24,318 nucleotides of DNA from a virus, in IMG/VR virus record IMGVR_UViG_3300030102_001066, positions 1 through 24,318 of that record. The stretch is one strand, 5' to 3'. A program made the position numbers and the translations under genes. Each line of letters starts with the position of its first letter. The stretch's first letter is position 1. Below the pieces are notes generated by a model. That model did not search any database. It worked only from the letters and a program-made list of their open reading frames with translations, and was not told where the DNA came from. Positions 18,474 through 21,935 of the stretch are shown here, in pieces.

Positions 18474-19031
18474 ATGAAAACAAAAATAAATAAATTACAA
18501 CCAAACGAAAGCAACCCTAGATTAATTAAAGAACACAAATTCAAAAAACTTGTTCAAAGTATAAAAGATTTTCCTGAAATGTTAGAACTCCGACCAATAA
18601 TAGTAGATGAAGATATGACTATACTAGGTGGCAATATGCGTTACAAAGCCTGCATAGAAGCAGGTATAAAAGAAGTGCCTATAAAAATTGCAAAAGGATT
18701 AACTGATGAACAGAAGCAAGAGTTTATCGTAAAAGATAATGTAGGGTTTGGTGAATGGGATTGGAATATGTTAGGAAACGAATGGGATAATGTTATACTT
18801 GCTGAATGGGGGATGGATGTTTGGCAACCTGAAGAAGCTGTTGACTATTCTGTTTTAGAAGATATAGAAGTAGGTTCTGAACTGTATGAAAAAGAGCAGG
18901 GTGTTAAAAGGGCTATACAAATAGAGTTTAGCCCTGAACATTATGAAGAAGCCTTATCATTAATAAATAAAACAAGAAAAGAAGGCAAAGATGTTGGTTT
19001 AATTGTTTTAAACTGTTTTAAAAATTTATGA
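18474..19031 (+). CDS. ParB/Srx-like domain protein
   Basis: A 185-residue protein. Residues 5-95 form a ParB N-terminal (ParB/Srx superfamily) domain: NESNPRLIKEHKFKKLVQSI, LELRPIIVDEDMTILGGNMR with the GGNxR motif at 52-56, then FIVKDNVGFGEWDWNML. The HTH and dimer domains of chromosomal ParB are missing. Members of this superfamily can be CTPases or nucleases. In phages they are often found beside terminase, DNA methylases and base-modification genes. Here the protein precedes a P-loop kinase-like gene (ATGA overlap) and a TET/JBP-like dioxygenase. Its role in that module is inferred. Confidence 0.8.
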   Translation: MKTKINKLQPNESNPRLIKEHKFKKLVQSIKDFPEMLELRPIIVDEDMTILGGNMRYKACIEAGIKEVPIKIAKGLTDEQKQEFIVKDNVGFGEWDWNMLGNEWDNVILAEWGMDVWQPEEAVDYSVLEDIEVGSELYEKEQGVKRAIQIEFSPEHYEEALSLINKTRKEGKDVGLIVLNCFKNL

Positions 19032-19510
19032 TATTAATTGTTGGAGAATGTGGTGTTGGAAAAACTTGGGTAATGAAACAGTTAATAAAAAACTGCAAAG
19101 CTTATAAACTTGGTTTGTTTTATTTTCACGAAAACAAAAAATATATAATTGTTGGCAAATATGATAACAGCACTTTTGAAGGAAGCGATAGATTAAGTAT
19201 GGCAGTAATGAAGGATTTAGATAAAATGCTTATATACATAAATAAACAAAAAAAAATAGGTGTTTTTGAGGGCGACAGGTTTATGAATAAAAACTTTATA
19301 AAAGCTGCTCAACCTTATATCATAAAAATAAAAGGAGATGGGAAGGCTGGCAGGTTAAAACGTGGAAGCCAACAAACAGAAAGGCAATTAAAAACAATTA
19401 AAACAAGGGTTGCAAATATAAATGAAAATATATTAGTAGATAATTCAAACGAATGTTTGTTAAAAATAAAAGAATATGAAAACATTAAAATTACAGCAAG
19501 TAGAACATAA
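19028..19510 (+). CDS. P-loop kinase, candidate DNA base kinase
   Basis: A 160-residue P-loop NTPase. Walker A is GECGVGKTW (6-14). KYDNSTFEGSDRLSMAVMKD (44-63) looks like a nucleoside-binding loop. KIGVFEGDRFM (76-86) holds a Walker B-like D83. The Arg-rich region RLKRGSQQTERQLKTIKTRV (109-128) fits a lid. The FEGDR and GSDRLS blocks recall the small phage P-loop kinases that phosphorylate hydroxymethyl-pyrimidines in DNA during thymine hypermodification; this is from memory of the family. It sits between the ParB-like gene and the TET/JBP-like gene, sharing overlaps with both. A free-nucleotide kinase is the alternative. Confidence 0.65.
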   Translation: MILIVGECGVGKTWVMKQLIKNCKAYKLGLFYFHENKKYIIVGKYDNSTFEGSDRLSMAVMKDLDKMLIYINKQKKIGVFEGDRFMNKNFIKAAQPYIIKIKGDGKAGRLKRGSQQTERQLKTIKTRVANINENILVDNSNECLLKIKEYENIKITASRT

Positions 19511-20279
19511 TATAAAAATAGGAAAGGAATGTCCATACCACGAACCTAATGTAAAGGAAGATTGTTTATTAGAATTAGATGGTGAAATTATTGGCTTTTA
19601 TATTAAAGATGTAACAAAATACAGTAAAAAACTAGCTGCACTAATTGCTATTGCTAACAAAGAATTTAGAAGTGATAATGTGCCTAAGACAGAAATGAGT
19701 AGAGGACCTCAAGGAAGCAAAAAAGATAAATTAAAAAGGCAAATAGAGGGGAAAAATTTAGTAACTCAATATAGCACTATTCTTGGAAGTAGAGCACCTA
19801 AACCACATATGAGGATGCCTTATCCAAGTATAACACCTGTTCATAGAGAACCATCAGCAAAAGTATTTATAAAAGCAATGTGGGGGTCTTGCCTAGAAGC
19901 TGAAAAAATAATAAAACAATTAACACCAAAAATTTACGAAAGGCAAATAGAATTATTTAAGGATGTAAAAAAACAATGGAAATTTGGAAATATATATACA
20001 AGCAGCATTTCAAACTTTAATATCGCAGCAGCATTTCATAGAGATACAGGAAACATACAAGGAACAGTAAATGTTATACTAACAAAAAGAAACAATGCTA
20101 ATGGTGGTTGCTTAAACGTTCCTGATTACAATGTTACATTTGAACAAGCAGACAATTCTATGTTAGTTTATCCTGCTTGGAAGAACATACACGGAGTAAC
20201 ACCAATAAAACCAATAGCAGAAAACGGATATAGAAACTCTTTAATTTTTTATCCGTTGAAAGCGTTTAAAGGAATATAA
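19476..20279 (+). CDS. TET/JBP-family 2-oxoglutarate/Fe(II) dioxygenase
   Basis: A 267-residue protein with the double-stranded beta-helix signature of the TET/JBP family: AAAFHRDTGNIQGTVNVIL (184-202, iron ligands H188 and D190), NGGCLNVPDYNVTFEQ (209-224), WKNIHGVTPIKPI (235-247, distal ligand H239) and GYRNSLIFYP (251-260, 2-oxoglutarate-binding R253). TET/JBP enzymes hydroxylate the methyl group of 5-methylcytosine or thymine in DNA. The upstream half includes a Lys/Arg-rich segment (75-93) and the STILGSRAPKPHMRMPYPS block, probably for DNA binding. It overlaps the P-loop kinase gene by 35 bases and lies two bases before terminase small. No cytosine methylase is seen here, so thymine is a possible target. 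Confidence 0.85.
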   Translation: MKTLKLQQVEHNIKIGKECPYHEPNVKEDCLLELDGEIIGFYIKDVTKYSKKLAALIAIANKEFRSDNVPKTEMSRGPQGSKKDKLKRQIEGKNLVTQYSTILGSRAPKPHMRMPYPSITPVHREPSAKVFIKAMWGSCLEAEKIIKQLTPKIYERQIELFKDVKKQWKFGNIYTSSISNFNIAAAFHRDTGNIQGTVNVILTKRNNANGGCLNVPDYNVTFEQADNSMLVYPAWKNIHGVTPIKPIAENGYRNSLIFYPLKAFKGI

Positions 20280-20281
20280 CA

Positions 20282-20635
20282 ATGGACAAAAGTGGACACA
20301 TAAAAAAAGAAAGTATGCTTAAGGCACTAGAAAGTAGTTTAGGGGTTGTAACTGTTGCTTGTAAGTCAGCAGGAATACCACGTAGCACTTATTACAAATG
20401 GCTGAAAGATGATGAAGAGTTTGCAAAGGCAGTTAAAGATATTGAAAACATTGCGTTAGATTTTGGAGAAAGCCAATTACACGCACAAATGAAAGATGGA
20501 AATACTTCAGCTACTATATTTTTTCTAAAAACAAAAGGCAAAAAGAGGGGGTATATAGAAAGAAGCGAGTTAGATTTAAGTTCAGGTGATGAGCCGATTA
20601 AAATTAACGTAAACATTAAAGGTGTTGAATATTGA
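20282..20635 (+). CDS. terS: Terminase small subunit
   Basis: A 117-residue protein. An N-terminal helix-turn-helix (about 10-45: MLKALESSLGVVTVACKSAG, then STYYKWLKDDEEFAKAV) is followed by the helical ESQLHAQMKDGNTSATIFFL and LKTKGKKRGYIERSELDLSS, a pattern typical of phage small terminases. These form a ring that recognises packaging sites and loads the large subunit. The C-terminal DEPIKINVNIKGVEY may contact the large subunit. It overlaps the large-subunit start by 14 bases. If phage DNA is modified, TerS would have to recognise modified DNA. Confidence 0.85.
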   Translation: MDKSGHIKKESMLKALESSLGVVTVACKSAGIPRSTYYKWLKDDEEFAKAVKDIENIALDFGESQLHAQMKDGNTSATIFFLKTKGKKRGYIERSELDLSSGDEPIKINVNIKGVEY

Positions 20636-21935
20636 AGCTAACTTTACACACACGCAAGAAGAAGCAATAGAATATCTATTTGACAAAACAACAACAGAAG
20701 TTTTATTTGGCGGTGCAGCAGGCGGTGGTAAAAGTTGGGTGGGTTGTAGTTGGTTGATTTTAATGTGTTTAAAATACCCTAAAACAAGATTCTTAATGGG
20801 TAGGAGTAAGCTTGATTCTTTAAAGAAAACAACACTAAATACATTTTTTGAAGTGTGTGAAACTTGGGGTGTAAAAGCAGGCAAGCATTACAACTTTAAT
20901 GGGGGTTCTAATATTATAACTTTTTTTAATAAATCAGAAATATTATTAAAAGATTTGTTTTTATACCCATCTGATAGAAATTTTGACAACTTAGGTTCTC
21001 TTGAAATAACAGGCGCTTTTATAGATGAAGCAAACCAAATAACTGAAAAAGCTAAAAATATTGTAGCATCAAGATTAAGGTATAAGCTTGATGATTATGG
21101 ATTAATACCTAAAATGTTAATGACTTGTAACCCTGCTAAGAATTGGGTATATACACAATATTATAGACCATCAAAAGAAGGAAAACAAAAACCGCACCGA
21201 AAGTTTATACAGAGCTTGGTAGATGATAACAAATACATTTCTAGGTTTTACAAAACACAATTACAAACGCTTGATGAATTAAGCAAGCAAAGGCTTCTTT
21301 TTGGTAATTGGGAGTATGATGCAAGTAAAGACAACCTAATAGAATATGATGCTATTTTAAATATGTTTAATCAAAAAGGGGTAAAAGGGCAAAAATATAT
21401 AAGTTGTGATGTAGCGCGATTTGGAAGCGATAAAACAGTAATAATGCTTTGGGAAGGGTTATACCTTATAAAAATAAAAACATTGCTTAAATCAGCTGTA
21501 AATGATGTTGTAGAGTATATTAGGTTGTTGCAACAAGAACACAAAGTAAATATAACAAACATAATAGTTGATGAAGATGGTGTAGGTGGTGGTGTTAAAG
21601 ATTACTTGCGTTGTAAAGGTTTTGTGAATAATGCAAGGGCTTTAAAAGGCGAAAACTACCAAAACTTAAAAACACAATGCTATTACAAATTAGCTGATTT
21701 AATAAACAAAGGGCAAATAGGCGTAAATTGTGAAGATATAAATATAAAAAACCAAATAATAGAAGAATGTGAACAAGTTAGAATGAAAGATGCTGACAAA
21801 GACAACAAGCTACAAATAATGCCAAAAGAATTAGTGAAAGGCATAATTGGCAGATCTCCTGACTTTGCAGATGCTTTAGCAATGAGAATGTTCTACGAGA
21901 TAGATGGTAACTTTGGCAAGTATTTTGTGCAGTAA
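20622..21935 (+). CDS. terL: Terminase large subunit
   Basis: A 437-residue packaging motor. ATPase domain: Walker A GGAAGGGKS (30-38), Walker B GAFIDEAN (D135, E136) and the coupling-type motif LMTCNPAKNW (166-175). Nuclease domain: YISCDVARFGSDKTVIML (259-276, D263), IIVDEDGVGGG (314-324) and SPDFADALAMRM (412-423, D414 and D417), consistent with an RNase H-like active site. It cuts the concatemer and pumps DNA into the prohead through the portal. The start is GTG 20622, or TTG 20625, inside the small-subunit gene. It is followed by a GC-rich hairpin and then a new late-motif copy. Confidence 0.95.
   Translation: MLNIEANFTHTQEEAIEYLFDKTTTEVLFGGAAGGGKSWVGCSWLILMCLKYPKTRFLMGRSKLDSLKKTTLNTFFEVCETWGVKAGKHYNFNGGSNIITFFNKSEILLKDLFLYPSDRNFDNLGSLEITGAFIDEANQITEKAKNIVASRLRYKLDDYGLIPKMLMTCNPAKNWVYTQYYRPSKEGKQKPHRKFIQSLVDDNKYISRFYKTQLQTLDELSKQRLLFGNWEYDASKDNLIEYDAILNMFNQKGVKGQKYISCDVARFGSDKTVIMLWEGLYLIKIKTLLKSAVNDVVEYIRLLQQEHKVNITNIIVDEDGVGGGVKDYLRCKGFVNNARALKGENYQNLKTQCYYKLADLINKGQIGVNCEDINIKNQIIEECEQVRMKDADKDNKLQIMPKELVKGIIGRSPDFADALAMRMFYEIDGNFGKYFVQ

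Follow-up and report, generated by a model that had tools for sequence, protein, structure and literature searches.

Thymidine hypermodification in phages M6, ViI and phiW-14 reportedly involves a 5hmdU DNA kinase and aGPT-PPlase/ADDT enzymes. Glycosylation cassettes composed of ParB, TAGT (Pfam PF20691) and TET are also said to have been predicted in phages, and phage TET enzymes reportedly participate in cytosine hypermodification together with a C5-methyltransferase. In Rhodococcus phage Tonitrus, a set of ParB, TET, aGPT-PPlase2 and a 5-hmU DNA kinase has been described (PMC11955845).

The window, meaning the whole 24,318-base stretch of DNA analysed, is the incomplete record of an uncultured marine phage. 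It carries what is probably a variant of a kind of system that is already known, phage TET/5hmU-kinase hypermodification, encoded by three genes next to those for terminase:

18474 to 19031, + strand: ParB_N-domain protein of 185 aa, first gene of the cassette and probable DNA-binding or targeting partner (Pfam PF02195, 9.3e-8)
19028 to 19510, + strand: small P-loop kinase of 160 aa, the variable 'X' gene, assigned from alignment, AlphaFold model, hhalign and TET context
19043 to 19066, + strand: Walker A, GECGVGKT, kinase residues 6-13, with G6, C8, G9, G11, K12 and T13 near-invariant in 27 homologues
19181 to 19198, + strand: GSDRLS block, kinase residues 52-57, aligning to GTDALG of a TET-associated PF18751 kinase
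19268 to 19279, + strand: EGDR block, kinase residues 81-84, probable Walker B/catalytic block, invariant in the alignment
19476 to 20279, + strand: TET/JBP Fe(II)/2-oxoglutarate dioxygenase of 267 aa, assigned from Pfam PF12851 and the model
20037 to 20054, + strand: H188-x-D190 iron ligands and N193 at position +3, invariant in 256/256
20190 to 20192, + strand: H239, third iron ligand, invariant in 256/256
20232 to 20234, + strand: R253, predicted 2-oxoglutarate-binding arginine, invariant in 256/256
20282 to 20635, + strand: terminase small subunit (terS), a neighbour outside the chemistry (PHROG 309, 1.8e-9)
20622 to 21935, + strand: terminase large subunit (terL), a neighbour (Pfam PF04466, 2.1e-14)

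The ParB and kinase genes overlap by 4 bases and the kinase and TET genes by 35, while a gap of two bases separates the end of TET from the start of terS. A sequence-only reading had proposed three genes at these coordinates, ending two bases ahead of the terminase small subunit, and had interpreted them as a DNA base-modification cassette; the positions of the open reading frames confirm the former, and the TET fold together with the TET/ADDT context of the kinase supports the latter. The cassette is not a chance arrangement, since the gene order ParB-X-TET recurs in more than 200 contigs and purifying selection acts on the kinase gene (dN/dS 0.08-0.17 for the window against seven relatives, with synonymous sites near saturation). 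A scan for promoters and terminators gave counts no different from those in shuffled sequences. As a whole, the cassette is best explained as a self-contained phage DNA hypermodification unit, a reading we regard as likely.

Each of the described systems shares part of this design. The marine-phage ParB-TAGT-TET cassettes have an identical gene order and TETs up to 90% identical to that of the window, but their middle gene is a glycosyltransferase where the window has a kinase. In Tonitrus, too, ParB, TET and a kinase related to that of the window lie near terminase, Asn stands three residues beyond the HxD motif of TET (HxD+3), and there is no C5-methylase; Tonitrus differs in possessing ADDT/aGPT-PPlase2 and in having its kinase apart from TET, whereas the window has three overlapping genes and no ADDT. 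M6, ViI and phiW-14 also have a small P-loop kinase predicted to phosphorylate 5-hydroxymethyl groups in DNA after replication, and relatives of the window kinase adjoin ADDT, PLP, FAD and GNAT-type enzymes. Their 5hmU, however, comes from a TS-like dUMP hydroxymethylase (PF00303, absent from the window) where that of the window would come from TET; they use aGPT-PPlase/ADDT, whereas window-type sets lack ADDT, and the match of the window kinase to M6 gp54 is weak. The methylophage Melnitz resembles the window in having TET plus a kinase and no ADDT that could be found, but a C5-methyltransferase adjoins its TET, a distant relative of the window TET with Asp at HxD+3.

The assignment of the dioxygenase to the TET family is firm at the level of sequence and predicted structure. 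Its match to Pfam Tet_JBP (PF12851; 4.6e-10, 39.4 bits) exceeds the curated cut-off of 34.9, and the complete ligand set that the sequence-only reading had recognized (H188, D190, H239 and R253) is identical in all 256 aligned TETs. In a fold search with the AlphaFold model (pLDDT 91.9), the nearest structure was TET2 (Z 19.4, rmsd 3.4, 241 aligned), followed by NgTet1 (Z 18.8) and then by CcTet and CMD1; FTO (Z about 14.5) and AlkB (about 13) scored lower than these. The enzyme thus groups with TET2/NgTet1 and not with protein or small-molecule hydroxylases. Fold and motif therefore point to a nucleic-acid oxygenase of the TET type as its predicted activity. Phage TET/JBP proteins in PHROG 6059 and in RefSeq records NC_020847, NC_020857, NC_011044 and others are labelled 'queuine tRNA-ribosyltransferase', which is probably an annotation error.

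As the substrate of this TET, thymine is favoured by the gene content of the window and its relatives. The competing substrate is 5-methylcytosine made by a host or unrecognized methyltransferase, with 5hmC and phosphorylated 5hmC as products. 5-Methylcytosine is the classical TET substrate, TET2 is the best fold match of the window enzyme, and a host C5-methyltransferase could supply the methylated base. Phages resembling Melnitz, moreover, have a C5-methyltransferase adjoining TET, plus a kinase: among the 71 loci retrieved by a Melnitz-type TET search, 66 have a C5-methyltransferase, as does Melnitz itself. Against this, the C5-methyltransferase family PF00145 is absent from the window, 25 IMG/VR relatives, Prochlorococcus phage MED4-184 and Tonitrus. 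The HxD+3 residue also differs, being Asn in 256/256 window-type TETs and Asp in all resolved Melnitz-type TETs, although it is an imperfect marker. Overall, we consider 5-methylcytosine an unlikely substrate.

The HxD+3 residue was considered as a marker of thymine (Asn) or cytosine (Asp) and is suggestive. D234 of NgTet1 reportedly contacts N4, and Asp at this position fits cytosine. The marker was nevertheless dropped, as the TETs of Cr30 and DLP_6 have Asp yet lack PF00145, and mammalian TET2, which acts on 5mC, has Asn. Asn at HxD+3 is compatible with either base and does not exclude either. In Methylophilales phage Melnitz (locus L115, 3454-7534), genes for a C5-methyltransferase, TET, a 427-aa protein and a kinase stand in a row, a set that predicts phosphorylated hydroxymethylcytosine. 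Because a C5-methyltransferase accompanies TET and a kinase related to that of the window in the Melnitz phages, the logic of TET plus kinase can apparently run on cytosine too. Melnitz is an isolated phage, and its TET and kinase are annotated as hypothetical.

The motifs read by eye in the kinase were all located, GECGVGKT at residues 6-13, GSDRLS at 52-57 and FEGDR at 80-84. No Pfam family matched the protein above cut-off, with only weak P-loop matches and an hmmscan E value of 0.17, below cut-off, for PF18751. In profile comparison, hhalign aligned it to the Tonitrus kinase, a PF18751 member, with an E value of 1.7e-10 over 133 columns, including the blocks FxGxDxLxM, EGxRxxN and TRxxN, and to the Melnitz_8 kinase of Melnitz with an E value of 7.4e-16. 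The alignment to M6 gp54, which we take to be the 5hmdU DNA kinase of that phage, was weak (E 4.6e-4, probability 33%) and covered the N-terminal half only. A search of the kinase profile against sequences of solved structures returned P-loop matches only (Midasin, LRRK2, Rab) and no informative relative, and NCBIfam gave no useful match. The AlphaFold model (pLDDT 86.8) resembles GMP kinase, uridine-cytidine kinase and bacterial polynucleotide kinase alike, with Z scores of 9-10. This is a generic small P-loop kinase fold, which therefore leaves the substrate undecided. A dNMP-kinase fold, considered as a sign against action on DNA, was set aside as non-discriminating, the model being equally like GMP, uridine and polynucleotide kinases.

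Where the fold alone is generic, genomic context decides the role of the kinase. Kinase loci from the IMG/VR scans, along with the window, were retained when at least 2.5 kb preceded and at least 2 kb followed the kinase (n=37). TET is encoded in all 37 of these well-flanked loci and an ADDT-type amino-acid:DNA transferase in 28, and the kinase therefore most likely phosphorylates a TET-made 5-hydroxymethyl-pyrimidine in DNA. In three loci (L089, L091 and L114), a kinase-ADDT fusion is the immediate neighbour of TET and a PLP enzyme is encoded upstream, and further loci carry FAD-enzyme, GNAT or amidotransferase genes; thymidine hypermodification reportedly uses these same types of enzyme, PLP, FAD, GNAT and amidotransferase. 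Alternatively, the P-loop protein could be a dNMP or nucleoside kinase, as its resemblance to GMP and uridine kinases might suggest, or a terminase-related ATPase, in line with a weak match to PHROG 800 'terminase small subunit', placed beside TET by accident. We regard either identity as very improbable in view of the constant presence of TET, the fusion of the kinase to an amino-acid:DNA transferase, and the glycosyltransferase or methyltransferase that takes its slot in relatives. The label 'terminase small subunit' is also borne by M6 gp54 and several actinophage PF18751 kinases, where it looks like annotation by position.

Several TET-linked kinases are labelled 'terminase small subunit' or 'adenylate kinase', probably in error. 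Other loci show elaborations of the basic set. L416 (3980-6504) has a tandem pair of TET genes followed by a kinase, without ADDT, while in L108 (1117-2120) glutamine-amidotransferase-like and GNAT genes stand within a ParB...ADDT-kinase-TET set and possibly provide extra tailoring steps.

The sequence-only reading had not noted that the middle position, X in ParB-X-TET, is an exchangeable slot. In a set of 256 TET loci whose surroundings could be read, a sample biased by the query TETs, X is a TAGT glycosyltransferase in 120, an FkbM methyltransferase in 89, kinase plus ADDT in 23, kinase alone in 13 and an unassigned protein in 4; 7 loci have none. These families were verified by Pfam on representatives, some of those for TAGT falling below the curated cut-off. 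In T6-like phages, TAGT has been described as probably a glucosyltransferase (PMC13390438). About 85 loci besides L059, L080 and that of MED4-184 (L083, 15790-17914) have the order ParB-FkbM methyltransferase-TET, as does P-HS2, and such cassettes would be expected to yield a hydroxymethyl base that is O-methylated (5-methoxymethyl-pyrimidine). In MED4-184 the ParB carries the annotation 'DNA methylase', although it is only ParB-like in sequence.

The borders of the slot are sharp. The DNA of the window is about 78-82% identical to that of TAGT-bearing relatives around ParB and TET, but the nucleotide alignment ends at 19021-19025, the end of ParB, and restarts at 19462-19473, the start of TET, whereas the alignment with the kinase-bearing locus L006 is unbroken. 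In sister phages the exchanged segment runs precisely from the ParB stop to the TET start, as seen from the identity of the two flanks in L011 (kinase) and L013 (TAGT), 93% and 91%; in L020 and L017, 92% and 96%; in L181 (FkbM) and L211 (TAGT), 95% and 93%; and in L245, which has a four-gene ADDT-kinase insert, and L260 (TAGT), 77% and 80%. Mapped on the TET tree, a quick tree with long branches, the label of X requires 36 changes; strongly supported branches force 15 or more for TAGT and 6 or more for kinase alone. Most simply read, every X enzyme acts on one shared handle, the TET-made hydroxymethyl group, to which relatives presumably attach sugar, methyl or amino acid. A one-gene swap thus seems enough for these phages to give their DNA a different chemical coat. 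No description of this exchange was found in the part of the literature searched.

Further variants of the slot were observed. In L285 (947-3061), TAGT is followed by a Sulfotransfer_2 protein and then TET, possibly yielding a sulfated glycosyl base. X-slot proteins of L222, L257, L258, L259 (301 aa) and L372 (5075-6004, 309 aa) look by eye like GT-B glycosyltransferases; the two tested, from L222 and L372, had no Pfam match. Nonlabens phage P12024L (L371, 1994-4259) carries TET, TAGT and a methyltransferase after its primase gene, a position where its sister flavophage P12024S (L084, 16313-17452) carries an ATPase/GNAT fusion, possibly another exchange of modification systems. P12024S gp24 was rejected as a TET candidate, being an ATPase/acetyltransferase fusion; the TET is in P12024L.

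The end product of the three-gene form can be approached through two kinase-only relatives, G002 (28,740 bases) and G003 (29,841 bases), which have direct terminal repeats of 148 and 138 bases (99.3%) and are probably complete genomes, circular or terminally redundant. Neither contains PF00145, PF18724 (ADDT) or PF00303, and Pfam scans of 40 and 38 of their ORFs recovered no other modification gene, glycosyltransferase included. The absence of a C5-methylase, a TS-like enzyme and a glycosyltransferase, first remarked on for the window, therefore holds in these terminally repeated genomes and extends to ADDT. PF18724 is likewise absent from the window, as is PF00303 from 29 records. Since G002 and G003 lack other recognized modification genes, direct oxidation of thymine and a phosphorylated end product are favoured. 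In SP8 DNA, phosphorylation of about 20% of 5hmdU by a 5hmdU DNA kinase blocks NcoI, NdeI, PvuII, NlaIII and other enzymes (PMC7653180); therefore phosphate alone can protect.

Phosphorylation may instead be an activation step only, after which an unrecognized phage or host enzyme swaps the phosphate for an amino acid or amine. ADDT, present in 28 of the 37 well-flanked kinase loci, is thought to replace phosphate in this way in relatives, ADDT-kinase fusion proteins exist, and in M6/ViI-type phages phosphate is an intermediate (PMC6449724). As most homologous kinases accompany an ADDT, a divergent or host-supplied transferase is conceivable here. On the other side stand the ORFs of G002 and G003, among which there is no ADDT or other recognized transferase, and the recurrence of kinase-only sets in several arrangements (L104, L384, L403/L405 and L381/L382). 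We give activation a real chance, though a minority one.

Taken step by step, the TET/JBP enzyme would hydroxylate a pyrimidine of the phage DNA at its 5-methyl group; the base is most likely thymine, oxidized directly to 5-hydroxymethyl-dU; we hold the preference for thymine over 5mC with good confidence. The P-loop kinase would then phosphorylate that hydroxyl in DNA, a step that context and homology make highly probable. In the three-gene form the phosphorylated base may be the final mark, whose bulk and charge would block host restriction enzymes, a proposal with about even chances. ParB may bind DNA and target or load the enzymes, for which the balance is similarly even. Its ParB_N domain scores 32.5 bits against a curated cut-off of 26.3, and ParB lies upstream of X in nearly all TET loci with enough sequence. 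A terminase gene occurs at most four genes downstream of TET in 187 of 231 loci, and the cultured mycobacteriophage Nigel has the order ParB-TET-terS-terL; gene position suggests that modification may be timed at packaging. The joint reading, offered tentatively, is of in-place thymine hydroxylation by TET and 5-phosphomethyl-dU as terminal mark from three genes, in a family that keeps ParB and TET and repeatedly swaps the tailoring gene, so that the surface chemistry of its DNA would vary in the manner of an antigen.

If this is correct, the cassette would offer a very compact set of genes for attaching phosphate covalently to DNA bases, one that could be used in vitro on T- or 5mC-containing DNA. 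It makes testable whether thymine is a substrate of any phage TET, as it is of trypanosome JBP, and cultured phages of like logic are available in Nigel (ParB-TET), MED4-184 and P-HS2 (ParB-FkbM-TET) and Melnitz (C5-methylase-TET-kinase). For the family, it would mean that one gene replaced between fixed borders, with the oxidase retained, is enough to alter the decoration of the DNA, and this opens a direct route to studying the arms race with restriction enzymes.
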